The notes under the pieces: generated by a model | What the model was told of the DNA's origin: nothing | What the model saw: the letters and a program-made list of their open reading frames with translations, nothing else | Databases searched by the model: none | Assembly: GCA_964035015.1 (NCBI GenBank) | Contig: OZ035997.1 | Location: 21,274,795-21,338,794, forward strand | DNA length: 64,000 nt | Direction: 5' to 3' | From: Corallium rubrum | Taxonomy: Eukaryota; Cnidaria; Anthozoa; Scleralcyonacea; Coralliidae | In this document: piece by piece, positions 24,149 through 55,989 of the stretch | Numbering within the stretch: the first letter of the stretch is position 1 | Layout: every line of letters starts with the position of its first letter | Program-made: the position numbers and the translations under genes

Positions 24149-24275
24149 CCCTATAGAATATTCCAGTATCATTATGGAATATTCTATGGAATATTCTAAA
24201 TCATATAGAATATTCTACATAAGTAGATAACCCCCCCCATCCAGCGTACAAAGGGATGCCGCCTCATTAAATATT

Positions 24276-24401
24276 CGGTGTGACGCCCGGTGTGACGCCC
24301 CCGTGTGACGCCCGGTGTGACGCCCCCGTGTGACGCCCGGTGTGACGCCCCCGTGTGACGCCCGGTGTGACGCCCCCGTGTGACGCCCGGTGTGACGCCC
24401 G
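24276..24401 (+). repeat. GC-rich tandem repeat GTGTGACGCCC, left end
   Basis: Alternating 12- and 13-bp units (GTGTGACGCCCG, GTGTGACGCCCCC) form a 25-bp period lying just inside the terminus of the palindromic element. The mirror array at 30267-30346 has two fewer 25-bp units. The GC content contrasts sharply with the AT-rich surroundings. Confidence 0.9.
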
Positions 24402-24743
24402 AAGTGTCTGAATTGGCAGAGCTCGTATAGACTTAGATTAATAGCATATAATGAATATTATATTAGGTTTAGAACCTAAATATTCATTCACCCTAGAATC
24501 ATTGCTAGCTAAACCCTTGTTTATAAGTGAAGAAATCGAAAGAAGATAGAATGAGGAGTCAATTCTAAAAGCCATAAGAACGTTTTTAAGTGTCGATATA
24601 TAAACGAAATATTATTTGGCTGCGGGACGGCTGAGTATCGACTTGAATTAATAGCATACATGAATATTATATTAGTTAGAACTTAAATGACCATCTTTAC
24701 CCATTTACTTGGAGATATGTGCCGAATTGTCGCTTATTAGGCT

Positions 24744-24941
24744 TTAGTTTATAAAGTAAACGATGCCTTGAATGAAGAAACCGTTCGGCAAGCTGTTGAA
24801 AAGACATTGAAACACTTTCTTCAGATAAACGGCTGACTCGGCTATTTTATTAACGTCGTCAAGCATCTTGTTAATGTTGCTACGGCAGATATTTGCATAT
24901 TTATCCTCAGTGCACGTGCAGGAGACAAAAGAAAAACTCAT
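24744..24941 (-). CDS. Small 65-aa ORF, left-arm copy
   Basis: ATG-started frame identical to the one at 29729-29926, with Cys near the start (SCTC) and a helical middle (MLDDVNKIAESAVYLKKVF). It is downstream of the ATPase gene on the same strand. The function is unknown, and both arms keeping it open may simply reflect arm identity. Confidence 0.3.
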   Translation of the reverse strand: MSFSFVSCTCTEDKYANICRSNINKMLDDVNKIAESAVYLKKVFQCLFNSLPNGFFIQGIVYFIN

Positions 24942-25048
24942 TAGGGGTCATTAAGAGGATTAAGCGCTTGGGCAAGTTTGGACGACAAGAATAACAGGAG
25001 ACACTGCGTTTAAAAAGATTTATTTCACTTTACAAATATGTCATTTAT

Positions 25049-26481
25049 TTAAAACATTTTTCTAGGACTGTGATGCCGACTCCTTGTTATAGGATAAGGT
25101 CTGCTCCTAAAATCATATCTAGGTACTCTCACTTTATAAGCAATATGAGGTTCATTCCTGGGAACCATTGAGATGCGAGGGTCTTCATCTTGACTATTAT
25201 TGACTGTTGTTTCATGTGAATCTTCATCAGAAGAATTTTGATATTTATCATTTTCTTGACGACCATAGTCATCTGAGTCGGCTTCCGAAACTTCTTCGTC
25301 CGAGTCGTTTTCTCCTGAATCACTTTCATCTCCAGTTATCCATTTTTGCAAAGGTTTCGGCTTTAGGTATTCAACAGTCGGAGGAGGAGATAGAAAATAT
25401 GGTTTAGGTACGCTAAGTCCAGACGGAGGATTTAACAGGCTATGTTCAGGTTGTTCAGGTTTTTCGGGGTCTCTGTCAAATTTTGTATAACTTTTAGTAA
25501 CTGTGTTTGAAGATTAGTTTGAACTTGATTCTGCTGGTTCTGCAGCTGCTGTTGGAATGTCAGAAAACGCTCGAGTTGATTAGAGTATAGGATGTTCTTT
25601 TCATCGGGTGTTAATTGTGGTGTTTGTACAATATCTTGCATTAGCTGTTCTGTATTGTACATAGCGTTGACGATCGGAGGTTGCTGATACGATTTCTTTT
25701 GAATATATCTGCTTATGTTCTGCTGCAGAACGGAGCTATTTTCTTCAGGTAAAACATTGGTCTTGAGGCGATGATCGTCATCCGTAGTCGGTTTCAGATC
25801 AAGCATTAAATAACCATGAGGGCGACTTGTGGCTTCCTCGTAGCTCTTCATAAACTCTTGAACATGTCCAGGATTCACTTGTCGTGCCAAAATGGAAATT
25901 TGCTGCTTATCCCTTGGAGACTTGAAGAGTATGATATAGTGTGCGTTGAGGCTGATGTTTCTGGTTTCCTTTCCTTGATGAAATATATTCTGAACAATAT
26001 AGATCACGGAGAGATTCCTGTGATGACTGCCCCTTGTAAATAAACTAGCAATACGTTTATCTCCCCCTGATTGATCCATAAGATCATCTAGGACAATAAG
26101 GTTTCGCCTCGAAACATCAAGAAAATCTTCCGAGTCGATGTCAGTAGGTATTCCTTCATTCAGTTCAATGCCCGGTATAGTTTTGATCATCTCGAGATAC
26201 ATGGGTTGCCATTGGCCATAACACCAAATGATACGTTCAGGAGGAGGATTAATCGTAGTTTTGGCGTTTTCCAGAAGAGTTTTTACCCATACGGTTTTAC
26301 CACTCTGAGTACACCCTGCAACAATGCACGTAAATGGATGCTGCAGGACTGTGGAACCATTGACGAGAGGAAATACTTGTCGTATTTGTTTTGTCGATGA
26401 TCTATGAACCATCTTCATGTGACGGAGGAGATTACTTGAATTAGCGAAAGATTTTCCACAAACTTCACAAACGTAGGACAT
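25049..26481 (-). pseudogene. C2H2-ATPase gene, left-arm copy, frameshifted
   Basis: This is the mirror copy of the intact gene at 28188-29621. A run of five T (plus strand, about 25460-25464) replaces the six A of the intact copy, which shifts the frame after LTETPK and ends the protein early (stop at 25432). The remaining coding sequence, including the acidic tail and basic C-terminus, stays open in another frame (25049-25351). The C2H2 and ATPase parts (residues 1 to about 335) are unaffected, so a truncated ATPase could still be made. No other difference was noticed. Confidence 0.85.
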
Positions 26482-26567
26482 GTTTCAGGTATGACGGTCA
26501 GATAAGTAATGAATAATTTTCTATTAGCCAACCTTGTTTATAGTGATTTAACACAAAAGTCCTAAGA

Positions 26568-28108
26568 CTATATAGTCCTAAGTCCTAAGACTATAGTCCT
26601 AAGTCCTAAGACTATAGTCCTAAATCCTAAGACTATAGTCCTAAGTCCTAAGACCATAGTCCTAAGTCCTAAGACTATAATCCTAAATCCTAAGACTATA
26701 GTCCTAAATCCTAAGACTATAGTCCTAAGACTATAGTCCTAAATCCTAAGACTATAGTCCTAAATCCTAAGACTATAGTCCTAAATCCTAAGACTATAGT
26801 CCTAAGTCCTAAGACTATAGTCCTAAGTCCTAAGTCCTAAGACTATAGTCCTAAATCCTAAGACTATAGTCCTAAGACTATAGTCCTAAATCCTAAGACT
26901 ATATAGTCCTAAGACTATAGTCCTAAGTTCTAAGACTATAGTCCTAAATCCTAAGACTATATAGTCCTAAGTCCTAAGACTATAGTCCTAAGTTCTAAGA
27001 CTATAGTCCTAAATCATAAGACTATAGTCCTAAGTCCTAAGACTATAGTCCTAAGTCCTAAGTCCTAAGACTATAGTCCTAAATCCTAAGACTATATAGT
27101 CCTAAGTCCTAAGACTATAGTCCTAAGTTCTAAGACTATAGTCCTAAATCCTAAGACTATAGTCCTAAATCCTAAGACTATAGTCCTAAATCCTAAGACT
27201 ATAGTCCTAAATCCTAAGACTATAGTCCTAAATCCTAAGACTATAGTCCTAAGTCCTAAGACTATAGTCCTAAGTCCTAAGTCCTAAGACTATAGTCTTA
27301 GGACCATAGTCTTAGGATTTAGGACTATAGTCTTAGGATTTAGGACTATAGTCTTAGGATTTAGGACTATAGTCTTAGGATTTAGGACTATAGTCTTAGG
27401 ATTTAGGACTATAGTCTTAGGATTTAGGACTATAGTCTTAGGATTTAGGACTATAGTCTTAGAACTTAGGACTATAGTCTTAGGACTTAGGACTATATAG
27501 TCTTAGGATTTAGGACTATAGTCTTAGGATTTAGGACTATAGTCTTAGGACTATAGTCTTAGGATTTAGGACTATAGTCTTAGGACTTAGGACTTAGGAC
27601 TATAGTCTTAGGACTTAGGACTATAGTCTTAGGATTTAGGACTATAGTCTTAGAACTTAGGACTATAGTCTTAGGACTTAGGACTATATAGTCTTAGGAT
27701 TTAGGACTATAGTCTTAGAACTTAGGACTATAGTCTTAGGACTATATAGTCTTAGGATTTAGGACTATAGTCTTAGGATTTAGGACTATAGTCTTAGGAC
27801 TATAGTCTTAGGATTTAGGACTATAGTCTTAGGACTTAGGACTTAGGACTATAGTCTTAGGACTTAGGACTATAGTCTTAGGATTTAGGACTATAGTCTT
27901 AGGATTTAGGACTATAGTCTTAGGATTTAGGACTATAGTCTTAGGACTATAGTCTTAGGATTTAGGACTATAGTCTTAGGATTTAGGATTATAGTCTTAG
28001 GACTTAGGACTATAGTCTTAGGACTTAGGACTATAGTCTTAGGATTTAGGACTATAGTCTTAGGACTTAGGACTATAGTCTTAGGACTTAGGACTATATA
28101 GTCTTAGG
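26568..28108. repeat. Central palindromic minisatellite of CCTAAGACTATAGT units
   Basis: About 1.5 kb built from CCTAAGT, CCTAAAT and CCTAAGACTATAGT words. It runs in one orientation to about 27293 and then in the exact reverse complement to 28108. The switch point is CCTAAGACTATAGTCTTAGG. The right half is about 90 bp longer. The heptamers resemble degenerate telomere-type TTAGG repeats, but no true telomere array is present. Confidence 0.9.
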
Positions 28109-28187
28109 ACTTTTGTGTTAAATCACTATAAACAAGGTTGGCTAATAGAAAATTATTCATTACTTATCTGACCGTCATACCTGAAAC

Positions 28188-29621
28188 ATGTCCTACGTTT
28201 GTGAAGTTTGTGGAAAATCTTTCGCTAATTCAAGTAATCTCCTCCGTCACATGAAGATGGTTCATAGATCATCGACAAAACAAATACGACAAGTATTTCC
28301 TCTCGTCAATGGTTCCACAGTCCTGCAGCATCCATTTACGTGCATTGTTGCAGGGTGTACTCAGAGTGGTAAAACCGTATGGGTAAAAACTCTTCTGGAA
28401 AACGCCAAAACTACGATTAATCCTCCTCCTGAACGTATCATTTGGTGTTATGGCCAATGGCAACCCATGTATCTCGAGATGATCAAAACTATACCGGGCA
28501 TTGAACTGAATGAAGGAATACCTACTGACATCGACTCGGAAGATTTTCTTGATGTTTCGAGGCGAAACCTTATTGTCCTAGATGATCTTATGGATCAATC
28601 AGGGGGAGATAAACGTATTGCTAGTTTATTTACAAGGGGCAGTCATCACAGGAATCTCTCCGTGATCTATATTGTTCAGAATATATTTCATCAAGGAAAG
28701 GAAACCAGAAACATCAGCCTCAACGCACACTATATCATACTCTTCAAGTCTCCAAGGGATAAGCAGCAAATTTCCATTTTGGCACGACAAGTGAATCCTG
28801 GACATGTTCAAGAGTTTATGAAGAGCTACGAGGAAGCCACAAGTCGCCCTCATGGTTATTTAATGCTTGATCTGAAACCGACTACGGATGACGATCATCG
28901 CCTCAAGACCAATGTTTTACCTGAAGAAAATAGCTCCGTTCTGCAGCAGAACATAAGCAGATATATTCAAAAGAAATCGTATCAGCAACCTCCGATCGTC
29001 AACGCTATGTACAATACAGAACAGCTAATGCAAGATATTGTACAAACACCACAATTAACACCCGATGAAAAGAACATCCTATACTCTAATCAACTCGAGC
29101 GTTTTCTGACATTCCAACAGCAGCTGCAGAACCAGCAGAATCAAGTTCAAACTAATCTTCAAACACAGTTACTAAAAGTTATACAAAATTTGACAGAGAC
29201 CCCGAAAAAACCTGAACAACCTGAACATAGCCTGTTAAATCCTCCGTCTGGACTTAGCGTACCTAAACCATATTTTCTATCTCCTCCTCCGACTGTTGAA
29301 TACCTAAAGCCGAAACCTTTGCAAAAATGGATAACTGGAGATGAAAGTGATTCAGGAGAAAACGACTCGGACGAAGAAGTTTCGGAAGCCGACTCAGATG
29401 ACTATGGTCGTCAAGAAAATGATAAATATCAAAATTCTTCTGATGAAGATTCACATGAAACAACAGTCAATAATAGTCAAGATGAAGACCCTCGCATCTC
29501 AATGGTTCCCAGGAATGAACCTCATATTGCTTATAAAGTGAGAGTACCTAGATATGATTTTAGGAGCAGACCTTATCCTATAACAAGGAGTCGGCATCAC
29601 AGTCCTAGAAAAATGTTTTAA
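28188..29621 (+). CDS. C2H2 zinc-finger fused to packaging-type P-loop ATPase
   Basis: 477 aa from a clear ATG. Residues 5-26 form a C2H2 finger (CEVCGKSFANSSNLLRH). Walker A is GCTQSGKT at 56-63 and Walker B is LIVLDD at 128-133. A polar YIVQN at 161-165 sits in the sensor-1 position. This order and spacing match the HerA/FtsK-like (A32-type) DNA-packaging ATPases of Mavericks/Polintons and relatives. The C-terminal third has a Gln-rich coiled coil (about 325-345), a highly acidic Asp/Glu/Ser segment and a basic Arg-rich tail. A polyadenylation-like AATAAA lies at about 29646. The finger fused to the ATPase suggests DNA recognition. The role in packaging is inferred from family knowledge. 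Confidence 0.75.
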   Translation: MSYVCEVCGKSFANSSNLLRHMKMVHRSSTKQIRQVFPLVNGSTVLQHPFTCIVAGCTQSGKTVWVKTLLENAKTTINPPPERIIWCYGQWQPMYLEMIKTIPGIELNEGIPTDIDSEDFLDVSRRNLIVLDDLMDQSGGDKRIASLFTRGSHHRNLSVIYIVQNIFHQGKETRNISLNAHYIILFKSPRDKQQISILARQVNPGHVQEFMKSYEEATSRPHGYLMLDLKPTTDDDHRLKTNVLPEENSSVLQQNISRYIQKKSYQQPPIVNAMYNTEQLMQDIVQTPQLTPDEKNILYSNQLERFLTFQQQLQNQQNQVQTNLQTQLLKVIQNLTETPKKPEQPEHSLLNPPSGLSVPKPYFLSPPPTVEYLKPKPLQKWITGDESDSGENDSDEEVSEADSDDYGRQENDKYQNSSDEDSHETTVNNSQDEDPRISMVPRNEPHIAYKVRVPRYDFRSRPYPITRSRHHSPRKMF

Positions 29622-29728
29622 ATAAATGACATATTTGTAAAGTGAAATAAATCTTTTTAAACGCAGTGTCTCCTGTTATTCTTGTCGTCCAAACTTGCCC
29701 AAGCGCTTAATCCTCTTAATGACCCCTA

Positions 29729-29926
29729 ATGAGTTTTTCTTTTGTCTCCTGCACGTGCACTGAGGATAAATATGCAAATATCTGCCGTAGCAACATTAAC
29801 AAGATGCTTGACGACGTTAATAAAATAGCCGAGTCAGCCGTTTATCTGAAGAAAGTGTTTCAATGTCTTTTCAACAGCTTGCCGAACGGTTTCTTCATTC
29901 AAGGCATCGTTTACTTTATAAACTAA
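29729..29926 (+). CDS. Small 65-aa ORF, right-arm copy
   Basis: Identical to the left-arm frame at 24744-24941. It lies about 108 bp after the ATPase stop codon on the same strand, with a Cys-rich start and a helical body. No known family. It may be a small accessory protein or a chance frame. Confidence 0.3.
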   Translation: MSFSFVSCTCTEDKYANICRSNINKMLDDVNKIAESAVYLKKVFQCLFNSLPNGFFIQGIVYFIN

Positions 29927-30266
29927 AGCCTAATAAGCGACAATTCGGCACATATCTCCAAGTAAATGGGTAAAGATGGTCATTTAAGTTCTAACTAATA
30001 TAATATTCATGTATGCTATTAATTCAAGTCGATACTCAGCCGTCCCGCAGCCAAATAATATTTCGTTTATATATCGACACTTAAAAACGTTCTTATGGCT
30101 TTTAGAATTGACTCCTCATTCTATCTTCTTTCGATTTCTTCACTTATAAACAAGGGTTTAGCTAGCAATGATTCTAGGGTGAATGAATATTTAGGTTCTA
30201 AACCTAATATAATATTCATTATATGCTATTAATCTAAGTCTATACGAGCTCTGCCAATTCAGACAC

Positions 30267-30346
30267 TTCGGGCGTCACACCGGGCGTCACACGGGGGCGT
30301 CACACCGGGCGTCACACGGGGGCGTCACACCGGGCGTCACACCGAA
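30267..30346 (-). repeat. GC-rich tandem repeat, right end
   Basis: This is the mirror of the left array: GGGCGTCACAC units alternate in 25-bp periods, two fewer than on the left. A run of 12 G (30382-30393, 8 C on the left) separates it from the terminus. Confidence 0.9.
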
Positions 30347-30408
30347 TATTTAATGAGGCGGCATCCCTTTGTACGCTGGATGGGGGGGGGGGGTTATCTA
30401 CTTACATA

Positions 30409-30716
30409 CATGTTAAATTCTATAGAATATTCCATTCTCATTATGGAATATTCTATAGAATATTCTAAATCATATAGAATATTCTACATGCATGTTAAAT
30501 TCTATAGAATATTCTATTCTCATTATGGAATATTCTATAGAATATTCTAAATCATATAGAATATTCTACATACATGTTAAATTCTATAGAATATTCCATT
30601 CTCATTATGGAATATTCTATAGAATATTCTAAACATATAGAATATTCTATGGAATTTTAAAATTCCATAGAATATTCTATAGAATATTCCATATTCAATA
30701 GAATATTCTATAGAAT
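30409..30716. repeat. GAATATTC array, right side
   Basis: Three units of about 75 bp (ACATGTTAAATTCTATAGAA, then TCATTATGGAATATTC, then CATATAGAATATTCT) are followed by a palindromic run. The array continues 24149-24215 and was split by the Maverick-like insertion. Confidence 0.8.
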
Positions 30717-30783
30717 CCTAAGGAATATTTTCGTAAGGGAGAGTTTCTTGATCCTTGTTTGCTAAGGCTATATTAATTTTCAG

Positions 30784-31104
30784 GAAAACAAAGACCCAGA
30801 TGTTTGGATTAAAAAGCATGTAGGAAATATGCCAATGATGGTAGTGGAAAAATAAAATATTTATGTTGTATGGGTAAACGCATATTATACTGGATGGATG
30901 CCAAGAAAATGGATGAAGCTGTGGTTGGGTTTTCGGCATGTTTTTATCTGCTGGACTACGACTAATAATCCAAAGCAACATGAAGTAGGCATGAACATCT
31001 TACAATACTATGTTTTTGAGGACAAAACAATTCCTGAGGATATTGCAGCTTTGTTTAATAGCCAATTTTCTCAGTATAAATGCTACAAAGCTGAATCTGT
31101 GTAG
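30784..31104 (+). pseudogene. Unrecognised coding remnants
   Basis: After a TTTTCAG acceptor, 23 open codons (KDPDVWIKKHVGNMPMMVVEK) end at 30855. Further on, ILYWMDAKKMDEAVVGF and then YVFEDKTIPEDI (stop at 31104) read in two frames with an apparent shift near 30955. They probably continue the gene whose exons lie at 15136-15320. No family was recognised. Confidence 0.3.
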
Positions 31105-31174
31105 TTTATAACATTTTCCCTTAATTTTATTATTATATATTCATTAAAAAGATATGGAAAAAGTAAATGTGGTC

Positions 31175-31319
31175 AACTGTTACTGTTTTAAAAAAGGTTT
31201 AATGAGTTTAGCTTTTTGTCGTACTACGACATCATCAGAACTTTCTGAGTTAAGATGATGATGTTGTAGTACAACGAAAGCTAAACTCATTAAACCTTTT
31301 TTAAAACAGTAACATGTTG
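31175..31319. mobile_element. Hairpin MITE
   Basis: Arms GTTACTGTTTTAAAAAAGGT through AATGAGTTTAGCTTT mirror each other around a short TCTGAGTTAAGATG loop. No target duplication is evident. A TA-rich insertion site is likely. Confidence 0.65.
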
Positions 31320-31469
31320 GCTGCTTTTATCTATATGTTACTGAAGGATATAAGTTTATTGGACTTAAAAATTATATATTGGTGTTTAATTGAAAGGTAT
31401 ATTTTTACCACTTTTCAGCTTATTAACATTATTATTAATTAAAATTAGACATGCATGCATATAGAATTG

Positions 31470-31508
<39 letters not shown>

Positions 31509-31510
31509 AA

Positions 31511-31718: not shown

Positions 31719-31879
31719 TTATGTATATATATATATTTTTGGAAAAGCTATTCTAGTAAGAAAATCCTTTTAAATTATTATTAGATTCTAATAGAATAGA
31801 ATATACTGTAATCTAGATAATTATTCATTTAATTCTTTATACACTGTATAATAATTTATTGCATGCATGTGATTTCTTT

Positions 31880-35071: not shown

Positions 35072-38000
35072 TCAAAGTCGTCGAACTTTCAAAATTGGAA
35101 TTTTGTCCGTACTTTGACAATCGCCAACAATTTTAACAGAATAAAATGATGTTTCTTCATGACGTGGCATGTGTTCGTGTTGACTGATTTCTGCGACTAG
35201 TGCAGACGCCAACCTCTTCTTGTCCCATTTTGAAAGGAATGCAACTGCATAGCCTTTGCACAATAGCTGTAGTTCCTTCTTCTTGTACAATGAGACAAAT
35301 CCGTCTTCTTTGACTTCCTGAGCAAGGGATAACAGTTTTGTATGCGAGACCTTCTTTCCGGGACTTCGGTCACGACTAATGACTGCTAAATGAACTTTCA
35401 TTTGCTTCTTGCGTAATTTCTCCTTTCTTACCAGCAGCGACTTTCTGTGGGCAAGAGACTTCTGTAGATGGTAGTCCCTCCTGAAGTCACGCAGAAACTG
35501 ACCAGCACCCATTTTTATAAAGCGTGTCACTACCTCCTTGTATATTTCCAAGATCAGTTTCTATAGTGAAGGGATGGAGAAAATAAGCTTGAAATAATTA
35601 AGGCAAGTAGTCATTTCTAGGCTATATGCACGTGCTACAAAAGGCCAGAAGGGGATAGCATTCCGGTAGCATGAAGTGGATAGTAGTTTGAAAGCATTTT
35701 TAAGATTGTGTAATACACATGTTTCAAACAATAGGTTCTGGCCCGTTCCGCAGCTAATTAACAATTAGTATAACATATAGGTGGTTCGTTTTCGCGTTAT
35801 AATCATGTCAAGCGCTGACACCAATCACAAATATAATTATGCTTTTACCAATTAAATTTGTTGCTCACCGAATCATCATCCGCGGCATCAAACAATTTAA
35901 TAAACATCTGTTGAAGAACTTTGTGTTGCAATATTTCCACAAGTGCTTCGTCAACGAGATCTGTTTTGTGCGAACGTAGTTTCTCCATGTTAATTTGGTT
36001 AACTCTTTCTTGTTCCAAGGCCAGAAAGAAATTAAAGGCAGAATCGCTGATATGAAGGAGACCTCTTTCTCGAAATTGTAATGACTCTGTGACTACCGTG
36101 GCATCTAGGGTTGAGGAGGTCCGTTCCAGGTGTTCATAAGGGACCACGATGTTATCCTGTAGGATTTCAACTTTCGTCAATTCGTTTTTCAGCGTCCTCC
36201 TTACATGCGAGCTTTGAGATAATTTGTTGTCTAACAAATACCTGAAAAAAGAATATATTGTATATGAGATATCCGTATGTTAGATAAGTAGCGAGTTCGA
36301 AGTGATATTCCATTTTCATTCCAATGTTACTATAGCATACAGAATTTTTCTGTATTGGTATGCACATAAAAAAATAATTACCTTCGCGATCTTTGGATAA
36401 CTTTTCGTATGGCCCATCCGCCAATATAACGTATCTTTCCCCTTCCATCAGGACCCATGCTGCTGACATCGAACGATATTGGTTGAGACTCCTTATTGCG
36501 TACCATGTTGCCCAACTCGTTTGTAAATAGCTGGAATAATTGAAAGACCAACTGGGCACCCAAAGTTCTTTGCCCATCGCTTAATTCGGACCAGGAAATG
36601 ACCGAAAAGGCACTGATCATGTCACTTCGATATTCGTTAGATAAGAAAAGCTGATGCATCTTGGCCGTTGCGTAGGTAAAGTTACTGTTCGTCATGTGAA
36701 CTGATTCCCCGTTTTCGGAAACGTAGGACTCGAATAGGGTGAACAACCGGCACCAAATAATACGAGCCAGCAGGTCGAAGAGCTCTAGATGATCAATGCC
36801 ATACCTTGCTGCGGATTTAATCGATGCGCTATATGGATCATCATTCGTGTCGTTGGTTACACTTTCCAAAAACTCTCGAACTGAGAAACGCGTTGGTAAA
36901 AATGACAATTGCGTCTTAAATTCTGCACACATGTACAAGAAAACATCTTCGAGATTGACTTGAACACCAGTATTCGACTCGTAAAACTCGCTAGCAATGA
37001 CTTCACAATCACTTCCCACAACATCTTCGTCGCTACCTTCTACCTCGTTGCTTTCTCTTTCACATCTTAGCATTTCCTCACCCAATTCTTTCTTCCTGCA
37101 GCACAAAAACTCTTGATCGAACACCGCATCACTTTCATTTGCCATCACTGTTTTCAATTTCTCCGGAGGTGGAATTAGAAACATTCGCTTGAAATTTAAG
37201 ACTTGAAGTGATGCTTCCTTCCTGACCCGCGACAAGGCTACGTACGTCTGGTCTGGAACAAACTCTTGAGCGCAATGAACGACTGCTGTATCGAGGGTTA
37301 AGCCTTGTGCCTTGTGCACTGTCATTGCATAACAGGCTCTTAGTGGGAACTGTGTCCAAGTTCCAATCACAGTACCGTTGGAATCGTATCTGCTCCATGT
37401 CTTCCGCTCGATCTTAACAGTTCCACTCTTCGGGAAGGTGACAAGAAGTTGATCTTCACCATTGGCTGCGTCGGGATCCGTGCCGAGAAATACTCCTTGG
37501 TTCCCATTCTTTAAGTGCTTGTTAATGTTGAACAGTAACATAATTTTGCATCCAGCTTTCAGAGATAACACTTTATCGATAGAATTTTCGAGCAACTGGG
37601 TAGGTCCACTATCTCTGCTTTCGAATGTTAACAGTGGACCAGGTAAGCACGACAGAACGTCTTGGTTGTGAATATCGACTGGGAGCTTCCTGAAGTAGAG
37701 GTGCAATGGCTCTTCTTGATCCTTATCCGTCACTAAGTTCCTACTTAATGAATTAAAATATCGTTCCGTGTCATCATCACACTCTCTTGCTCGTAAATTG
37801 TCTAACGCAGTTCGTAACTCGCACTCCGAACTATCTTGCCTAAGAATCTTTGGCAGTTCTATTTTGTGAGGGAACACGGCGTCAAAGAGTTTAGATTCGT
37901 AGATTGGATCTCCTTTGTCTAACAGATTTCTTACCGGTTTCAACTGCCGAAAATCGCCGACCAATATGACTTGAATTCCTCCGAACGGATAAGAATTTTC

Positions 38001-38408
38001 CAATAAACGATTGTGCAATGCGTTAACTAACTCAAAAAGTCGTTGACTTGACATAGAAACTTCATCCCAGATGAGCACATTCACACCACTTATTTGCGCA
38101 ACAATATTATTTCGACCAAGTGATCGTTCTATGAGTAAATCGACGGGCAATTCCGCAGTTTGCAATCCATAATAGGAATGAACAGTTGACGCAGCACCGC
38201 CATAGGCATCACAGGAAACACCACTTGGACAAACTATTTGACAATTAATACCTTTTGAAGAAAGTACTTTCTTTATTCTTTGAACCACTGTGGTTTTTCC
38301 AACTCCGGCACGACCAAATATACATAAATTGTGGCCACTTAAAGCTGCGTCGACGGTTTTTTGCTGATCCCCTGTGAGTTTAATTGAATCCGCTGATCCG
38401 CTATTCAT
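35072..38408 (-). CDS. Pif1-like DNA helicase with long unknown C-terminus
   Basis: A clear ATG at 38408; exons 38408-36382, 36241-35869 and 35560-35072 join in frame, about 960 aa in all. Residues 1-410 form a superfamily 1B helicase: GRAGVGKT (32-39), IWDEVSM (113-119), GDFRQLKPV (151-159), GCKIMLLFN (286-294), MTVHKAQGLTLD (362-373) and YVALSRV (389-395). All key residues of the Pif1/RecD2 group are present. The rest has an acidic stretch (about 450-480), then a helical region I cannot assign, and a Lys/Arg-rich final exon. It would unwind DNA, perhaps during replication-coupled transposition. The gene sits just inside the right terminal repeat and runs toward the transposase. It is not a Helitron: no Rep/HUH motif is seen. 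Confidence 0.88.
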
Positions 38409-46496: not shown

Positions 46497-47157
46497 TATA
46501 TGGGGTGCCATGGCCGCCAAAATTATATAAACAAGCAATTGTTCATTGTTTTGGGCATTATGTAGCTATTTTGGTAATATCAGCCAGCTTATTTTTTTAT
46601 TATTCAGCATACTTTTTATCATTAGCCAGCTTATTTTTTATTATTCAGCATACTTTTTATCATTAGCCAGCTTATTTTTTTATTATTCAGCATACTTTTT
46701 ATCATTAGCCAGCTTATTTTTTATTATTCAGCATAGTTTTTATCATTAGCCAGCTTTTTTTTTATTATTCAGCATACTTTTTATCATTAGCCAGCTTATT
46801 TTTTATTATTCAGCACACTTTTTATCATTAGCCAGCTTATTTTTATTATTCAGCATACTTATTATCATTAGCCAGCTTATTTTTTATTATTCAGCATACT
46901 TTTTACATTGGCCAGCGTTTTTTATTGTTATTCAGCTAATTTATCATTAGCCAGAGGTCTGGCACTAGCACGAACTTGAAGAGGCTTATTTCTCAGTATT
47001 TTGACTGAATAATAAAAAATAAGCTGGCTAATGATAAAAAGTATGCTGAATAATAAAAAATAAGCTGGCTAATATTACCAAAATAGCTACATAATGCCCA
47101 AAACAATGAACAATTGCGTGTTTATATCATTTTGGCGGACATGGCACCCCATATAAT
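46497..47157. mobile_element. Fold-back element with internal 46-bp tandem array
   Basis: TATGGGGTGCCATGGCCGCC at the left and its mirror at the right continue inward through CAATTGTTCATTGTTTTGGG and GGTAATAT. The loop holds about eight 45-47-bp units of AGCCAGCTTATTTTTTATTA (46578-46945). The right arm keeps two inverted units. No protein is encoded. TATCTA occurs beside both ends, but the match is not clean. Confidence 0.65.
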
Positions 47158-47159
47158 AT

Positions 47160-49740
47160 CTATGGACCAAGAATGAAAGAAGTTTCCCCCCGGAATATAT
47201 TAGAATACCACTGCGCACGAGTGGTTTTGTTTGCGACTGGCGAATACAACAATGGCGGAGAAACGCAAAGGAGTGATCGATTTTTTCTTCTCGAAACAAC
47301 GAATTTCTAGGCTTTAGTGCATGGCTAATTAAATATGGTCTGGGCGAAAGGATTTACTGTCTGCCTAGCGAAAGGTCAAAGGTGCGAATAAATATTAAAA
47401 GCTTTATATTTAACTTTAATATGGTGTGGCATGTTGACGATGTTGTGAAGTCGGTTTGTAGAGTGTTGTTGGTTCATGTCTGTTATATTTTCAGCTCAGT
47501 AACGAATTCTGTATACTGGAGATCGTAGACTGTCTTCGCATTTTGATTTGGCGTTCAATAAGCAACTGTACGAAGAACCCTGGCCATATAGTAAACATGA
47601 ATGTTTAGTTCTACATGTATCTGTACCTGCGTAAACTTAGCGCGTGATTGGGCAGACGATTCGCAAGGCTATGAAGCTAGCAACGTAATCATCAGGCGTA
47701 ATAATTTGTGAAGGCAACAAAAACTTACTTATCTTGACATCCACTTGACAAATATTAGTCAATTTTGATCTGGATTGACCGGACGTCACACGATACGTGT
47801 TAGTATCGGAATTGTTGTGATGCGCCAAGCTTTTTATGCAAAAATTTCGAGGAGTTTAAAAATATCTTGATGTTATGAAACAGACCGGAAAACAATAGTG
47901 AAGGGCACGAAAGACGTCAGTATTCATGTTTGTCGGAGTTTATAATTTTTTTTGCGTTCTTGAAGAGAAAATGACTCTAAGAATCCCTCGAGATTCTATT
48001 TTGGGTTGTTTGTCTGAGTTTTCGCTTGTATTAAATTAACTTGGGCTTTGCTCAAGAAAATGGGCTGGCAGGTTGCGGGGCTGGCAGCTCTGTCCATACA
48101 CGTGGCAAAAATTGTTATTACTAGAAACTTTGTACTATCCTTGGGATCTAGTCTTCCAGCTTGCCAGTGCAAGTGAAAAACAAGTGATATGGCACTTGCT
48201 AACCAATTAGAACATTACTTCTCTCTTCGGCGGGAAAACTAACCAATTACAATTCGCGCAAGAGTCACATATAAGCTCAAACGCGCCAAAATGAATCACT
48301 TTATCCAAGAGCTCTACACTGAAAGCTGCTTGTAAGCTCTACACAGGAATTTTTGTATTCTGGTTTTCGTAACTGCGCCTTCGAATGCCAAAGACATATG
48401 AGCACGCTCTGCCAGTTGTTGCTCTCGAGCGTGTACAAATACGAACACAAGAATCCATGACGGCTCTTCAAAGACCGCGCCAGACGAACTCGAACTAGAA
48501 TACGACCACAAGAATCCCCATGACGGCTCTTCGATGACTACGCCAAACGATCCAGAGAAACGGAATCTATATATCGAGAATTCAAGCCTTCGAGTACAGG
48601 AGCTAGAACACCGCGTCACCATGATGGTGAACGGGAAACCAAAAGGGAGCCATTCGTCACACAGTGTTAATCTCCGATACTCACGCTCGTCATGGATACA
48701 CTGCAAAGATCGACAATTGTAGCACTGAACGTGTTTTTCAAAGCTAGACGCATCTTTCCAACTTGGCTGGCCCTTCCATGACAGAACAGACAATCTTTGG
48801 AACAACTGCGTGCCGACGACAAGAACTGCGGAAACATCACGTCAGCCTCCAGCCAACCATCAGATTTCAAGTCTTCGATAGCTTTGGTTGGTCGTGTGTT
48901 CTTTCTGGTAAATATGCAAAGCGATAACTTAACAGAGGTGGGCAATAGCGCAGTTCCTGCGATAAGAAAAATCATGCGAAAAGGGCTCTTAACATGTTTC
49001 GCGGTCATGTGCTAAGTTAATTTCAATATTCGCAACTCGATAATGTATCCCGGATTGACGTGAGCGTCGATTGTATGATTGGTGAGGTAAAGGAACTTAG
49101 ATACATTATTGTAGCTTGAATGGTTATAGCAACCATTCTTTGGGTAATAAATTCGGAAAGACAGGACGGAAGTTACAATTAAGCGAAGGCTAATAAAAAT
49201 CGAAACAAAACACCGCTTAACACGTCTTCCGGCATATAATGCAATAAATTTAATTTCAATTTTCCTAACTCGAACCCTATGGAGAACGTAAAACGAAAAC
49301 CTCACGAAATGAAATTCTTATGGTAATGTAGATATTTTGTTGAAGAAAATCGGAAAAATAGAACCGAAGTTATGATTATTTAAGTCATGGATAATATAAA
49401 TCTGGGGAAAACGCCACAAAACACGTCTTGAATTAATTTTCAATATTCACAACTGGAAACCTACCGCCAACGCAAAAAGAAAACCATAAGGAACGAAATG
49501 TATATATGTACTATCACGGTAAGGTAGATACTTTCTACAAAAACAGAAGTTACGATTACCAGGTAATCAGGTATTTAAACGATTGGTAACAACAATGCAA
49601 GAAGAAAGGCATGCACTCTTAACAGATCTGGCGGTGGTGCGCTAAGTTTAATTTTAATATTTCTAACTGAAAAGCTATCCAGAACGCAAATCGAGAAACC
49701 TTAAGAAATGAAAGGTTTATAAATGCTAATAATGTTGATA
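47160..49740. other. No firmly recognised gene
   Basis: A short ATG frame at about 47252 reads MAEKRKGVIDFFF and stops after 19 codons; such starts occur in some hAT-type proteins, but this is too short to call. Around 48425-48545 a 60-70-bp unit (CACAAGAATCC, ATGACGGCTCTTC) is repeated twice. The open frame at 48314-48805 crosses this repeat and is not convincing. Confidence 0.4.
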
Positions 49741-49744
49741 CAAA

Positions 49745-50745
49745 ACAGGCTTACAGCGCAGGTAAAAAACGCTTTCTTGTCTTCGTTAATGTGTACAAGC
49801 GTAATAAATAAACCAATCGAACACTGTCTGCCTGCCACCGAAGCGCTCTTGACAGAATTCGTTGCGTACTTAGCCAAAACAATCAAATATTCATCCATTA
49901 AATGTATATAGCAGCCGTTCGTCACTATCACATTCGCCACGGATTTCAATTGAACTTTCAAAAAATGTTACGCTTGCAACTAGTCTTTTCTCATGGAGGA
50001 GACCAAATTCGAGTGCGCTTACCGATTACAACAAGTCCATCATTTACAACTTTTCCAAATGATGCTCGCTATTCCAACCAAAACTATAGTTAGTTTGATT
50101 TATATATTTTAGTTTGACTGTTATGACTTGGGCAGCTATGATTTGGGCAGCATATGACTTTAGCATTTTTCGATTTTCTTCGTCTCAGAGAGCTAACATG
50201 CAATTCCAAATTCAACCCAGATATACATCTTACACCAGATAGCATCACATTTTTACCAGGGATAGGAACTGGAAATCCAGCGTTCATGACTGTTTCTATT
50301 AAAGAGTCCAAGACTGACCCCTTTTCACATGGGTCATACGGTAACGCTGGGAGCCAATGATTCCCCTCTTTGTCCAGTTTTGGCCATGAAACAATATATT
50401 CCCCGGCGAATGCCCACAAGAGGTCCTCTCTTCATTCATGCTTCAGGAACTGACATCTGACGAAACAGACTTTAACCTCGGAGACGCGGAAATACTTACT
50501 CAGGCCGTTTTCAACGCTTCACAATATACTGTTCATAGCTACCGCATTGGTGCTGCTACAACTGCAGCTTCAGAAAAATTGCCTTCTTGGCTCGTTAAGA
50601 CATTAGAACGTTGGCCATCGGGTTGTTACGAACGCTATATAAAGACCCCTACATCCACTCTATCAAGTGTATCAGCCACGCTGGCCGACGTTCTAGCTAC
50701 ATGTCCAAAAATCGCTATATTGCCATTGTGCATTTCGGGGGCAGG
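49745..50745 (+). pseudogene. Decayed tyrosine recombinase
   Basis: Broken frames give, in order, KKRFLVFVNVYK and LPATEALLTEFVAYLAKTIK (SAM-like core-binding region), AAVRHYHIRHG, then FFDFLRLRELT and SIKESKTDPF (N-terminal catalytic part). VHSYRIGAATTAA follows (the HxxR box), then LERWPSGCYERYIKTP with the Tyr nucleophile region. Frameshifts occur near 49900, 50345 and 50440, so no enzyme can be made. This family is carried by DIRS-like or Crypton-like elements. No reverse transcriptase lies beside it, so the parent element type is open. Confidence 0.7.
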
Positions 50746-50873
50746 GATACTTCGTCTATGGGGAATACACATTCTGTGTATTTTTGGGGATGAAGTGCTC
50801 CCAATGGTCACCTTCAAGCCCATAGACTCAGGTTATTTTATGTAAATATAATGATCAGTCGAATCGTAAGAAC

Positions 50874-51012
50874 TGTCCAAGGGGATTATGACCCCTTGGT
50901 TCAGGTCGATGTCTTAGGGGGTCGCTACCCCTTTGGCAGGATATGTCCTACTCGGGTATTATTACCCCTAGGGCATTAGCAGAGTCCTAATGGGGATTAT
51001 ATACCCCAGGAC
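50874..51012. repeat. Cluster of four short GGGG/CCCC hairpins
   Basis: CCAAGGGG-ATTATGA-CCCCTTGG is followed by AGGGGGT-CGCT-ACCCCT, GGGTA-TTAT-TACCC and TGGGG-ATTATATA-CCCCA within 140 bp. They lie just after the recombinase remnant and may be recognition or terminal structure of its element. Confidence 0.65.
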
Positions 51013-51384
51013 AACAATCTAAGGCCATGAAATAATGAGTCGTTGGGATGATGTTTGACCACAATTTTAGACAATCGGAGTACTTCACCCCAAACCCCTT
51101 CTCCCACAAAACTTTGTGTGTGTGTCGTTCATTAGTATTTGCTTGATTGTTCGGCCTTTCCTTTTAAAGAACCGCTTGAATCATTAACATAGTGAAATTC
51201 AGTTTATGACTGCAAAGTTGGTATAAACGATTTATCTATCGATTTATCTATCTACCGTTAGTGATAAAAACCGCACTCGGTAGTTTTAGAGAGATACTAT
51301 CCAATGTAATGAGCTGGGTTCTACCAATAAAGTTTATATATATTAGAGTGAACCCCCGAAAAAAAATTTGCATTTTATGTTATT

Positions 51385-51439
51385 ACCACGTTGTCAACTT
51401 TTGACTTTTTTTGTGCGTCTATAACCGAACAGACAACCG
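51385..51439. mobile_element. CCGTTGTCTGTTC MITE, half copy
   Basis: Only the right half (ACCACGTTGTCAACTTTTGA to GAACAGACAACCG) is present, mirrored to 57127-57185. Confidence 0.6.
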
Positions 51440-51745
51440 TAAAATGAAATCTATGTCTTATGCTTTATACAGTAAAAACCTAGAGAAACTATACATTTCA
51501 AAAGTTTTACAGAATTTTCTTTGGGCAAATTAAGGAACGTCTTGGTCTGTAATAATGTTGCAGTGAGATCCGTGATTGGTTTACAGAAATCAGACCACGT
51601 TAGTGACGTAATTTGTGCATCTTTTCTTTACATCCAAACCGGATGTTCGTTTCCACGGATTGCGCATCAATTGTTTTATATTCATTGGCTAATTGCCGAT
51701 CACAAGTTGGTATCTTATTAAGCGTGGGAGCTGCTGCATGAATTA

Positions 51746-52945
51746 GTGCTCGCGTTGAATAAGATTATACGTCTGGGCTACATTATGTTCCAAGTTATAA
51801 TCTCGTTCTTAAAAACAAAGCACAAATTGGCACATTTAAATGCTCGTAGCCTTTCTGTTCCTGATAAATTTACTGTAATTTCAGCTTTGGTTTTACTTCA
51901 AAAATTCGATATTTTTGCTGAGACTTGGCTTAATGTGAGTATGTCAAGCGATCAGCTGATTATTCCTGGCTACAACAGCCGGTGGCGGCGTTGCTCTTTG
52001 TATTACGAATTATATACCTTTCAAAAGAAAACCAGAATATGAATGTGTTGATATTGAAATGTTGTGGGCGGAAACTATTTTGAATAAGTTCAAATTTCTA
52101 TGTGGGGTTTGTTATACACCCCCTAGTTCTAAAGCTACCGAAATAGACAATTTTTTTCGATCATTGCAATATAGCCTCAATCAAATTCGTATAAAAAATT
52201 ATACTTCTATTATCCTTATTGGCGATTTTAATGCCCATTATAACTTTGCTGATTCGTCGTCGGTCAGCACTTATGATGGTGGTAAACTTTTTCATTTTCT
52301 TGAATGTAATAATCTGTCCCAACTTATTAATGAACCAACTAGAATAACTCAGTCAGGTGATTCTATTTTGGATCTTAATATTTCTGACTCTCCAAGTCTG
52401 TTTGTTTCAACAGGCACGTTAAGTCCACCATCAAATTGCGATCGTAATGTTATTTTTGGTAAGTTATCCATTCCTAAAAAAAACCTAAATGTTATAAAAG
52501 GAAAGTGTGGAATTTCAGTGCTGTTGACGACAATGAATTGAATACTGCATTGGCAGGGGCTGATTGGAATGCCAATTTTTATTGACAATTTACTCAATAT
52601 CATTATTGATAATTCTTTATGACAAATGGTTTCTTTGTTTTTGAGCATAGTTGAACGCTTTATTTCCAGTAAAATAGTTATTATTCACACCAGGGATAAA
52701 CCGTGGATGAACGGAGTCATTCGTTGGGCTATGAATAAACGTAATCGACTTTTAAATAATTTTTGTAAGAATAAATCCTTGTTTAATTGGGAGAAATATC
52801 GTGTGCAAAGAAATCTTGTTGTCAGTCTTATTATCCGTAAAGCAAAATTAGATTACGATTATAAAACCAATGAAATGTTGTCTAATCCAAATACATCACC
52901 AAAAAAGTGGTGGAATCTTAAATATATACATGAGACAAACTAAAA
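51746..52945 (+). pseudogene. Non-LTR retrotransposon endonuclease fragment, plus strand
   Basis: Frames give LAHLNARSL (start of the endonuclease), FDIFAETWLN, CGVCYTPPSS, IILIGDFNAHYN (the GDFN motif), LINEPTRITQSGDSILDL (domain end) and then a linker with KPWMNGVIRWAMNKRNRLL and KKWWNLKYI leading toward an RT that is absent. A deletion near 51985 and stops near 52540-52620 break the frame. The 5' part is an inverted copy of 55990-56760. Confidence 0.8.
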
Positions 52946-53117
52946 TTTAAGAGAGTGGCAAGGGCCGTATATAAATAGATTAAGAGGGAAAACAAGATAA
53001 AAAAAAAAGAATAGTTTAGATCAATTTAGAACAAAAGAAAAATTTAAAAAAGAACGATGAAAATCCGCAGTAGCTTAATCCGCACAACCAGCAACGGAAG
53101 TGACTTCATAGGGGTGT

Positions 53118-53232
53118 GCGCACAGGTGTGCGCACAGGTGTGCGCACAGGCTGACGTCACAGGGGTGTGCGCACAGGCTGACGTCACAGGGGTGTGCGCA
53201 CAGGCTGACGTCATTAGGGGTGTGCGCACACC
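53118..53232 (+). repeat. GC-rich tandem repeat with TGACGTCA, left end
   Basis: GTGTGCGCACAG units alternate with GCTGACGTCAC. The mirror array at about 55837-55925 is shorter. TGACGTCA is the consensus CREB/ATF site, so it could act as a promoter element (inference). Confidence 0.85.
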
Positions 53233-53814
53233 TTTACGTAAATCCTTAAAAAATTAATAAAGTAGGTCAAAAGGGCGAAAAATTGGGTATGGCAAACGCG
53301 AAATCGTACTGATTTTAGAGCAAAATATGCTTGGAGTAGGTAATCCCCTGGAAGGAATTTATCGAAGCAGTTCGTGTCATGAAGCTAGATTACCATGGAC
53401 AAGCGGCGGAACATTTTAATGATTTTGGAAAAGATCATGAGGCAACTCTTAACTTTCTGATGGATTTGAGACAGAGTTCAGGTTTTTCTGATTACCAAGC
53501 CATTTTAAACTATCTTTCTTTTTGGATTAATGATCACAATGACAATGTGCATTAGACACTTTTATAACTTTATGTACACTGAATTACTTACACCGATGTT
53601 TTATAAGTTTATGTACACTGAATTACTTTGACTGATGTTTTATAAGTCTACGTGAGAATTTTCTACCATAACTAAACACTTAATAAGTATACTGTTAAGG
53701 TTTTTACGTTGTTTGTTTATGTAAATGGTTACACGAGAAAGAAACGTCATGTGGTTATTTTCAATGCGTACCTGAACCAGCAAAGTCGTCCCGCGTTGAA
53801 GAGCCGTTCATTTT

Positions 53815-54005
53815 TGTGAGATGAGAAGATGAGCACATGCTCATAACTGCTCTGAGCACTTGCTCATTTGCTCATAACTGCTCTGAGCACTTGCTCATTT
53901 GCTCATAACTGCTCATGAGCACTTGCTCATTTGCTCATAACTGCTCATGAGCACTTGCTCATTTGCTCATAACTGCTCATGAGCACTTGCTCATTTGCTC
54001 ATATG
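53815..54005 (+). repeat. GAGCACTTGCTCATTTGCTC tandem repeat
   Basis: Units of 33-34 bp (GCTCATAACTGCTC then GAGCACTTGCTCATTT) occur about five times. The mirror copy lies at about 55098-55240. It sits between the arm and the coding centre. Confidence 0.85.
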
Positions 54006-54145
54006 GCCCGATGGCCCGATAGAAGGTACGGCTTAATTCTGGTGTACATTTTTTTTTTCTTCAAGGACTTCTTATTGCTTAAAAAATGAAACAAGACACA
54101 ATACAATTTTGATAAATTTTTATTTCACATAAGCATTACATCGAT

Positions 54146-54706
54146 TCACTGATCATCATCACTATCTGAAACACGTCCTTGATCTTCTAAAAGCTGTTTC
54201 AAAAGAAACTTTCTTTTGTCAACCGCTGCAGATAAAGCTTCATCAGGATCAAACGAGTCTTCGTTCACAAGTGTCGGCTTTGTTTCCATGATCTTTCCAT
54301 GCACAGGATCCTTTTTAAGTGCTTTCATCCAACGTAAATTATCCACGTAAACGTCAGCGAATTGTTTCTGAAGTTCAGGGAGAATTTTTTCAAAGGCTTT
54401 CTGCTTAGCTACACTTTCTTCTTGCCCTTCCATTTGCAACGTTTTTAATAGTTCATCATATTCTGGCCGAACCGTCACTTTTGCATCGTCAATCATGGTT
54501 GCCCAAGGATCAATCTCTTCCTTTATTTCACCATCATCTTCGGAACTCTGACTGTTTTCATCATACGACGAGCTTGACATTTCTTCATCAGATTCCATAT
54601 CAGGTTCCTCAGTGTCAGTATATTCCCTTGACGGACAATAATTGTTTTCGTGCCGTCTTAGATTATAGCCTTTACTAAACATTTTCCCACAATATTGGCA
54701 GTTCAT
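54146..54706 (-). CDS. C2H2-finger acidic protein, 186 aa
   Basis: A clear ATG. Residues 3-24 are a finger-like motif (CQYCGKMFSKGYNLRRH, then a Cys in place of the last His). A long Asp/Glu/Ser region (about 28-70) follows, then a mixed helical domain (WATMIDDAKV, QKAFEKILPELQKQF, DNLRWMKALKKDP) and an acidic end. The finger matches the style of the ATPase of the other element (CxxCGKxF....NLxRH). I do not know this family. The length and acidity could suit a small regulatory or virion-associated protein. It lies 77 bp downstream of the 69-aa gene on the same strand, so co-transcription is possible. Confidence 0.7.
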   Translation of the reverse strand: MNCQYCGKMFSKGYNLRRHENNYCPSREYTDTEEPDMESDEEMSSSSYDENSQSSEDDGEIKEEIDPWATMIDDAKVTVRPEYDELLKTLQMEGQEESVAKQKAFEKILPELQKQFADVYVDNLRWMKALKKDPVHGKIMETKPTLVNEDSFDPDEALSAAVDKRKFLLKQLLEDQGRVSDSDDDQ

Positions 54707-54783
54707 TCTTTCAGCTCAGACAACCTGTAAATGACGAGTAGGGACGGAAAGTCCTTATTAATAAACACCACTTGATTTTTGGA

Positions 54784-54993
54784 CTAGGAATTTCTTTCGT
54801 CCATGCTTTCTATAGTTATTTCAACTTTAGCAACCGGTTTTTGTCGATCATTCTCTAACGCATTTAATCTTGCTTGAGTAAGATATGGCTGCCTTTTCTC
54901 GCGAGAAAGTTGATGAACATCAGCCAAATGGTTGGATAGCTTTACCAAACTTTGTTTCCCACATAAGGGACAATCTTTACGTCTTCGTGGCAT
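54784..54993 (-). CDS. Small zinc-finger protein, 69 aa
   Basis: A clear ATG. It is basic at the start (MPRRRKD), then has one C2H2-type knuckle, CPLCGKQSLVKLSNHLADVH at residues 8-27, followed by LSREKRQPYLTQARL. This looks like a compact nucleic-acid-binding protein. It is the first gene of the pair in the unique centre of the mini-element. I recall similar tiny finger proteins near Maverick-like genes in marine invertebrates but cannot verify that here. Confidence 0.65.
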   Translation of the reverse strand: MPRRRKDCPLCGKQSLVKLSNHLADVHQLSREKRQPYLTQARLNALENDRQKPVAKVEITIESMDERNS

Positions 54994-55989
54994 GTTTCGA
55001 AATGAAGTTCTCTGATTCGCAAGCGCGTGTAATATAACTCATAAAATGACATTTAGACGTCTAGTCAGCAATCGGGCTATCGGGCCTCATCGGGCCATAT
55101 GAGCAAATGAGCAAGTGCTCATGAGCAGTTATGAGCAAATGAGCAAGTGCTCATGAGCAGTTATGAGCAAATGAGCAAGTGCTCATGTGCAGTTATGAGC
55201 AAATGAGCAAGTGCTCAGAGCAGTTATGAGCATGTGCTCATCTTCTCATCTCACAAAAATGAACGGCTCTTCAACGCGGGACGACTTTGCTGGTTCAGGT
55301 ACCCATTGAAAATAACCACATGACGTTTCTTTCTCGTGTAACCATTTACATAAACAAACAACGTAAAAACCTGAACAGTATACTTATTAAGTGTTTAGTT
55401 ATGGTAGAAAATTCTCACGTAGACTGATAAAACATCAGTCTAAGTAATTCAGTGTACATAAACTTATAAAACATCGGTGTAAGTAATTCAGTGTACATAA
55501 ACTTATAAAAGTGTCTAATGCACATTGTCATTGTGATCATTAATCCAAAAAGAAAGATAATTTAAAATGGCTTGGTAATCAGAAAAACCTGAACTCTGTC
55601 TCAAATCCATCAGAAAGTTAAGAGTTGCCTCATGATCTTTTCCAAAATCATTAAAATGTTCCGCCGCTTGTCCATGGTAATCTAGCTTCATGACACGAAC
55701 TGCTTCGATAAATTCCTTCCAGGGGATTACCTACTCCAAGCATATTTTGCTCTAAAATCAGTACGATTTCGCGTTCGCCATACCCCATTTTTCGCCCTTT
55801 TGACCTACTTTATTAATTTTTTAAGGATTTACGTAAAGGTGTGCGCACACTCCTAATGACGTCAGCCTGTGCGCACACCCGTGACGTCAGCCTGTGCGCA
55901 CACCTGTGCGCACACCCCTATGACGTCATTTCCGTTGCTGGTTGTGCGGATTAAGCTACTATCCGCACTAGTAAAAGCTGTTAAGTACA

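Follow-up and report, generated by a model that had tools for sequence, protein, structure and literature searches.

Candidate Maverick-type elements with divided gene content in the genome of Corallium rubrum

Intact Mavericks (Polintons) have been characterized as large elements that encode a polymerase, an integrase, and capsid proteins of their own. In vertebrates, according to the available part of the published description (PMC8097293), intact copies span 12.7–24.6 kb, have terminal inverted repeats of 46–1,447 bp, encode integrase and capsid genes, and hold ppolb, atp, pm, and pz together in one module; the same source identifies the AGT end repeat as a Maverick motif and states that jumping-back in protein-primed replication requires such end repeats. 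Here, we analyzed a 64,000-bp stretch of the genome of Corallium rubrum (the window), which contains two small elements, E1 and E2, without a detected integrase or major capsid gene. As far as the vertebrate elements are described there, the coral elements resemble them in their 6-bp duplications, AGT-based end motif, inverted termini, PolB, and ATPase with adjoining genes in the atp, pm, pz order, whereas E1 and E2 themselves measure 6.2 and 2.9 kb, carry one to two main genes, and have arms taking up to half of the element. Based on shared termini, duplications, copy numbers, and complementary gene content, we consider E1 and E2 to be Maverick-type elements whose gene content is divided and which are probably copied by PolB and integrated by an integrase acting in trans (probability of roughly 80%).

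A scan of prokaryote genomes returned two contigs associated with the tubeworm Escarpia (L001 and L002), which were taken as an outside comparison; they carry Maverick genes, are filed in GTDB under the genome of an Escarpia endosymbiont, and are probably host contamination. The L002 Maverick, which we take to be adinto-like, has the gene order PolB, ATPase, 103-aa (amino-acid) protein, 273-aa protein, integrase, and then virion-type genes. Its ATPase is 45% identical, a PolB homologue whose frame begins with a finger stands before it, and homologues of two proteins of the coral elements, p105 and p223, adjoin it (p105 matched the 103-aa protein with E 9e-4, and p223 the 273-aa protein with E 2e-7). 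Unlike the coral elements, L002 holds one contiguous set including integrase, penton-like, presumed capsid, and protease genes. Given the order of the vertebrate module (PMC8097293), p105 and p223 probably occupy the pm and pz positions.

Other systems were set beside the coral elements by their descriptions. A preprint reports finger-type regulator genes in some adintoviruses, which recall the fingers of E1 and E2 but there lie within complete viral genomes (available part of PMC11071296). Vesanto virus resembles the coral elements in its PolB-type DNA genome, the genes of which are believed to be distributed among as many as twelve small molecules that resemble one another in their inverted ends, whereas it is exogenous and bidnavirus-related, and the available part of its description mentions neither integrated palindromes nor 6-bp duplications (PMC8363768). 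Among titles and abstracts of the open-licence literature, we found no description of a non-autonomous, mini, or defective Polinton/Maverick. Miniature inverted-repeat transposable elements and other non-autonomous DNA transposons have ends in common with a larger element, high copy numbers, and target-site duplications; E1 and E2 differ from them in retaining open viral-type genes, including an ATPase with a low ratio of nonsynonymous to synonymous substitution rates (dN/dS).

The features of E1 were as follows.
24216..24221, unstranded: left 6-bp target-site duplication, TACATA
24222..30402, unstranded: element E1, candidate palindromic mini-Maverick of 6,181 bp, with AGTAG/CTACT ends, inverted arms, and a terminus matched across the genome
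24278..24400, + strand: left subterminal tandem array, GC-rich, 25-bp unit
25432..26481, - strand: second ATPase copy in the left arm, a 349-aa open frame, frame-broken, with the remainder matched at 25052-25501
26557..28112, unstranded: central array of 21-bp units, an inverted repeat in itself, separating the two ATPase copies
28188..29621, + strand: A32/FtsK-type ATPase with an N-terminal C2H2 finger, 477 aa, intact (Pfam PF04665, 3.8e-06; PF00096, 7.1e-08)
30270..30344, - strand: right subterminal tandem array, GC-rich
30403..30408, unstranded: right 6-bp target-site duplication, TACATA; the satellite continues over the joined flanks

Outside the arrays, the two arms of E1 showed 0 substitutions and one 1-bp gap over 2,156 aligned columns, forming a near-complete palindrome, and the unit of the subterminal arrays was 25 bp long and of the GTGTGACGCC type. 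The insertion site was an 82-bp satellite, which was continued with 93.7–100% identity when the flanks were joined with one duplication. The ATPase scored above the cut-off of PF04665, giving E1 the A32/FtsK-type ATPase gene characteristic of Mavericks/Polintons. Its homologues in the protein database numbered 661, and the coral Oculina patagonica was named for 4 of the 120 among the matches listed. Among PHROGs profiles there was no match below 0.28, and scans of viral contigs with the ATPase, the ATPase alignment, the alignment of a 186-aa protein of E2, and PolB returned zero relatives. We make no structural claim on the ATPase, since its AlphaFold model was of low quality (mean pLDDT of 56) and yielded no Foldseek match below 1e-3.

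The features of E2 were as follows.
53063..53068, unstranded: left 6-bp target-site duplication, ATCCGC
53069..55960, unstranded: element E2, candidate mini-Maverick of 2,892 bp, with a terminus common to a larger Maverick at C18
53069..53971, + strand: left inverted arm, with a subterminal array at 53101-53230
53379..53555, + strand: 58-aa open frame in the left arm; the identical protein is encoded at 55515-55691 (- strand)
53838..54003, + strand: inner tandem array of the left arm, 32-bp unit, with its mirror at 55098-55232
54146..54706, - strand: 186-aa protein with an N-terminal C2H2-like finger followed by helices (model of low pTM)
54784..54993, - strand: 69-aa Cys/His protein, related to a 78-aa gene of the PolB palindrome at C20
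55098..55960, - strand: right inverted arm, with a subterminal array at 55840-55916
55961..55966, unstranded: right 6-bp target-site duplication, ATCCGC

The arms of E2 aligned over 904 columns at 94% identity, with 8 mismatches in 607 columns outside the arrays, and the GC-rich subterminal arrays had a 27-bp unit of the TGACGTCA/GTGTGCGCAC type. The AlphaFold model of the 186-aa protein was helical (pTM of 0.38). This protein had 190 matches in the protein database (120 listed) and the 69-aa protein had 18, the window's own included; the latter was 61.7% identical over 47 residues to its 78-aa relative in the C20 element. A tblastn search found no match to the A32/FtsK-type ATPase in E2. Similar frames in opposite orientation flank E2 at 52059-52541 and 56307-56717, and by eye they appear retroelement endonuclease-like.

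The initial annotation, made from the window alone, had described AGTAG/CTACT ends with exact 6-bp duplications, strong palindromy, and GC-rich tandem repeats inside the ends of both elements, all of which were confirmed. Its claim that the encoded proteins carry a CxxCGKxF..NLxRH finger held for the ATPase (zf-C2H2, 7e-08) and more weakly for the 186-aa protein (5e-04, below cut-off), but not for the 69-aa protein, which has a different Cys/His motif. E1 and E2 were the sole AGTAG...CTACT pairs with identical 6-bp flanks in the window; since letter-shuffled windows yielded a mean of 0.56 such pairs (maximum of 4 in 200 shuffles; pairs 500–25,000 bp apart), the motif of 5 + 6 bp alone is weak evidence, and the weight of the element calls rests on the inverted arms and further copies.

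Such copies were abundant in the 474-Mb assembly (312 contigs). The 16-base terminus of the E1 type had 144 forward and 151 reverse matches, and its reversed control had 0 + 0; the first 501 bases of E1 and E2 gave 61 and 74 matches, respectively (best 40 candidates scored for each). Among the first 100 listed of the 295 E1-type termini, 30 inward-facing pairs less than 25 kb apart were present (22 of 4.3–8.2 kb, 7 of 11.1–13.8 kb, and 1 of 20.1 kb), together with 40 singles and 2 neighbor pairs in outward orientation; the sole 20.1-kb pair lay at C1:16133682-16153778. We read 16 of the matched loci, chosen mostly for nearby matches on both strands, and found both end motifs at 9, one end at 6, and no end at 1. 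Eight of the nine two-ended loci had exact 6-bp duplications, all distinct, and the ninth (C25:493k) had inverted flanks. For E2, seven copies with their ends were fetched, of which six had an exact duplication and one matched at five of six bases; the genome also contains E2-type copies shortened by deletion to 1,283 and 1,590 bp. Thus, the Maverick-type ends and duplications recognized initially extend to further copies of both elements, and E1 and E2 share with Mavericks/Polintons the 6-bp target-site duplication and inverted ends with an AGT repeat.

Pairs of E2 termini about 20 kb apart at C39 and C156 were tried as full-length elements and rejected; their first 10-kb slices held an ordinary E2 copy and then other sequence. 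Beside the E2 copy at C156 lies a virus-like stretch (L051:3893-9908) with a weak PolB match and, by eye, a Bro-N-like frame.

Next, we assigned the gene content of E1-type loci by tblastn. Six loci carried the ATPase on one side and p105 and p223 on the other, and three carried p105-p223 in each arm with the ATPase in between (one ATPase broken). At C21, p105-p223 was doubled without an ATPase, and in E1 the ATPase was doubled. Palindromes at C37 and C25:307k encoded a second ATPase with p190, and palindromes at C46 and C19 held that ATPase whole or in part; the complex palindrome at C25:493k combined both gene sets, and these element proteins had no tblastn match at C15:6.4M. Many copies were frame-broken, including the left-arm ATPase of E1. 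With PolB as the query, tblastn gave no match in E1 or E2, so that neither was found to hold a protein-primed family B polymerase. Integrase, major-capsid, and protease queries matched nothing in E1 or E2 or in any other slice of a small element that was read, and a penton-like query had no match in E1 or E2; the major-capsid query itself was without a Pfam match, and the protease query was below the Pfam cut-off. We assigned the labels capsid and penton to these queries by eye. The C37 palindrome, which has AGTAG ends, contains at its center, in both orientations, a 43-residue fragment that shares 49% identity with the beginning of the L002 penton-like protein (L027:5517-5815). Because this fragment is mirrored at the center, the palindrome turns inside or beside a penton-like gene, a pattern consistent with copy-back from a fuller Maverick, and the remnant of a capsid gene likely reflects descent from fuller Mavericks. 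The divided gene content proposed in the initial annotation was supported, with the amendment that E1 represents one arrangement of several and that related copies carry the ATPase plus two more genes.

PolB was found in both arms of larger palindromic elements, 11–13 kb in length, with the same type of ends as E1. We sorted PolB kinds by their matched span on the Pfam profile, and type i (start at 7, end at 197-200) formed inverted pairs at four places. A duplication-guided scan delimited one of these, the C20 palindrome, at 2810809-2822245 (11,437 bp, duplication TATATT). Its 5.6-kb arms were 98.6% identical, each with a PolB (the left one interrupted) and a 78-aa relative of the E2 69-aa protein, and a shortened ATPase lay at the center; the first ~60 bases matched E1 at 81–88%. 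The ends of the three further type i pairs were predicted from C20 (501 bases read per end), and all were AGTAG and of the E1 type. Their duplications were GACCTC and GATGTT, exact at the motif, and GACACT, 3 bp beyond the right motif with the end reading AGTAGTAG. The E1 and PolB palindrome termini aligned with a score of 133, compared with a shuffle maximum of 51.5.

E2 had its ends in common with a different partner. Its terminus and that of the C18 Maverick, tandem repeats included, aligned with a score of 212.5 (shuffle maximum of 53.5). The left end of this Maverick was predicted and then found, as ACCGTC followed by the E2 terminus with tandem repeats. A 15-mer joining the E2-type right end and ACCGTC had a single match in 474 Mb, on one strand at C18:1044185-1044199; the reversed control also had 1, as 15 bases allow a chance match. 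The C18 Maverick thus spans 1028983-1044193 (15,211 bp) and encloses a PolB match at 1032599 and, at 1036757, an integrase match with 36% identity to the query, both known as genome-search matches, the element itself having been read over its first 1.6 kb. Just inside its end, a 107-aa frame (L076:481-804) shows by eye a RING-like Cys/His pattern. Accordingly, of the full-length Mavericks expected to have the terminus of either element, one was recovered for E2, and for E1 only the PolB palindromes were found. A canonical Maverick at C141 was also present; its ends were not found.

The separation of PolB, integrase, and finger genes extended across the genome. The integrase search (a one-clade query with 130 of 1,766 candidates scored) gave 135 rows, of which 115 places were entered and 20 rows repeating or continuing a listed locus were excluded. 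Among the 76 PolB loci in the matches listed, an entered integrase match lay within 15 kb of 0 of the 23 type i loci versus 40 of the 53 others (Fisher p 1.4e-10); a borderline PolB counted among the 53 (C8:51502117, profile 7-198) had no integrase nearby either. On the contigs shared with the listed E1-type termini, 7 of the 9 type i PolB loci were within 15 kb of such a terminus, as opposed to none of the 41 integrase rows and none of the 16 other PolB places. The 186-aa gene of E2 had 150 listed genome matches, a few being two pieces of one copy, and many spanned all 186 residues without stops. Of these, 1 had an integrase and 0 an entered PolB within 15 kb, and 0 lay inside the C18 Maverick, so that simple internal deletion of this Maverick, the alternative raised in the initial annotation, does not explain the E2 genes. 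Seven opposite-strand pairs less than 3 kb apart among the listed matches indicate that E2-type elements also exist with doubled genes. The sole place with integrase and 186-aa matches close together (2.2 kb) was C1:85565553-85568319.

We computed dN/dS on intact copies only. Between the E1 ATPase and seven intact copies of its family (four near-identical mutually), dN/dS was 0.22–0.26 at dS of 0.85–1.02; the values were 0.11–0.16 for three PolB copies, 0.32 for p223, and 0.39 for p105. Intact ATPase copies appear to be under purifying selection, and intact PolB copies likewise look constrained. Low dN/dS in elements without an integrase suggests that their products matter, and may partly reflect descent from larger elements.

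We consider the following mechanism most likely. The PolB of related elements would synthesize linear DNA of an element, starting at its AGT-repeat ends, presumably by protein priming, since AGT-based ends fit the jumping-back repeats of Mavericks. A Maverick integrase acting in trans would then insert the element and leave a 6-bp duplication. Palindromes may form if synthesis reverses onto its own strand, so that one arm is doubled (copy-back); doubled arms comprised ATPase/ATPase in E1, p105-p223 at C21, PolB/PolB at C20, and the penton-like fragment mirrored at the center of C37. The substitution-free arms of E1 would fit recent copy-back, and gene conversion would also keep the arms alike. 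The finger proteins may bind the subterminal arrays. Regarding the initial proposal that E1 and E2 are satellites moved by the integrase of a full-length Maverick, the E2 partner does enclose PolB and integrase matches, but the one-clade integrase search yielded no donor with E1 ends, and the satellite role itself is our interpretation.

Several results weigh against divided gene content maintained in trans. The E1 terminus scored 56.5 against the C18 Maverick (shuffle maximum of 50.5), and the E2 terminus scored 37.0 against the PolB palindrome (shuffle maximum of 47.0); because the termini are barely alike beyond AGTAG, these comparisons do not establish a single machinery for both elements. 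The one-clade integrase query, with its scored subset of candidates, found no integrase with E1 termini. The 23 type i PolB loci represent fewer independent elements, because both arms of four palindromes are counted, and the arrangement of E1-type termini rests on the 100 listed of 295. The ATPases of the small elements did not form one clade in the ATPase tree. For the E2 genes, dN/dS ranged over 0.39–1.15 (186-aa) and 0.13–0.53 (69-aa) among copies too alike to tell.

Maverick-type elements with divided gene content could range from passive satellites to a true multipartite element. A specific version of the latter, which we put forward tentatively, is an integrated multipartite Maverick in which four gene sets reside on their own small, often fully palindromic elements, a PolB segment would replicate them, the integrase of another Maverick would insert them, and arm copy-back would make new segments. 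Either extreme is rather doubtful when taken strictly. At one extreme, E1 and E2 would be plain internal-deletion or copy-back leftovers of full-length Mavericks, with their genes as mere passengers; the E2 ends in common with the C18 PolB-plus-integrase Maverick, the shortened E2-type copies, the C37 fragment copied back as if from a fuller element, and the broken frames in many copies, the left ATPase of E1 included, all accord with this. It is countered by low dN/dS in intact ATPase and PolB copies (for the ATPase, at dS of up to 1.0), by the many full-length 186-aa matches absent from the C18 Maverick and, with one exception in 150, from the vicinity of integrases, and by PolB itself being carried on elements with E1 ends. 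At the other extreme, which we judge similarly improbable, PolB, ATPase-p105-p223, second ATPase plus p190, and finger genes would each occupy a separate small palindromic segment of one virus-like system. The complementary gene sets of PolB and ATPase elements under common termini and the low dN/dS favor such a system, as does a segmented relative in print, the bidna-like Vesanto virus, with perhaps up to twelve segments according to the available part of its report (PMC8363768), whereas no integrase or major-capsid segment with E1 ends was found among the slices read and the integrase candidates scored, and E2 termini are unlike E1 termini.

Two further explanations are very improbable. Duplications of 6 bp are not unique to Mavericks and also occur in IS3EU and Dada, and no integrase match was obtained in either E1 or E2, so that another such superfamily might have captured Maverick genes; however, elements holding PolB, or PolB plus integrase, are delimited by the same ends, and the AGT end repeat is described as a Maverick motif (PMC8097293, available part). 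Palindromes produced by fold-back reads during assembly would account for the inverted host flanks included at C25:493k and for inverted matches reaching the slice edge at C23:246k and C15:12.9M, but AGTAG ends followed by direct 6-bp repeats terminate E1, E2, the PolB palindromes, and the eight loci with duplications, and the flanks of E1 continue one satellite. The C25 palindrome (C25:493728-506453; L012, L013) is itself either an inverted duplication in the chromosome or the result of fold-back during assembly.

If E1 and E2 are indeed Maverick-type elements with divided gene content, DNA mobile elements would gain a counterpart to segmented viruses. They raise the question of whether a protein-primed transposon can function with its genes on separate elements and whether its integrase acts in trans. 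AGTAG ends combined with a 6-bp duplication also provide a search rule for unannotated repeats.

Elsewhere in the window, a 665-aa frame at 20362-22359 weakly matched Transposase family tnp2 (PF02992, 3e-05, below cut-off). A 676-aa PIF1-like helicase frame at 36378-38408 (PF05970, 2e-22) possibly belongs to a Helitron or is a host gene, and a 41-bp tandem array at 46582-47095 is followed by its own inverted copy.

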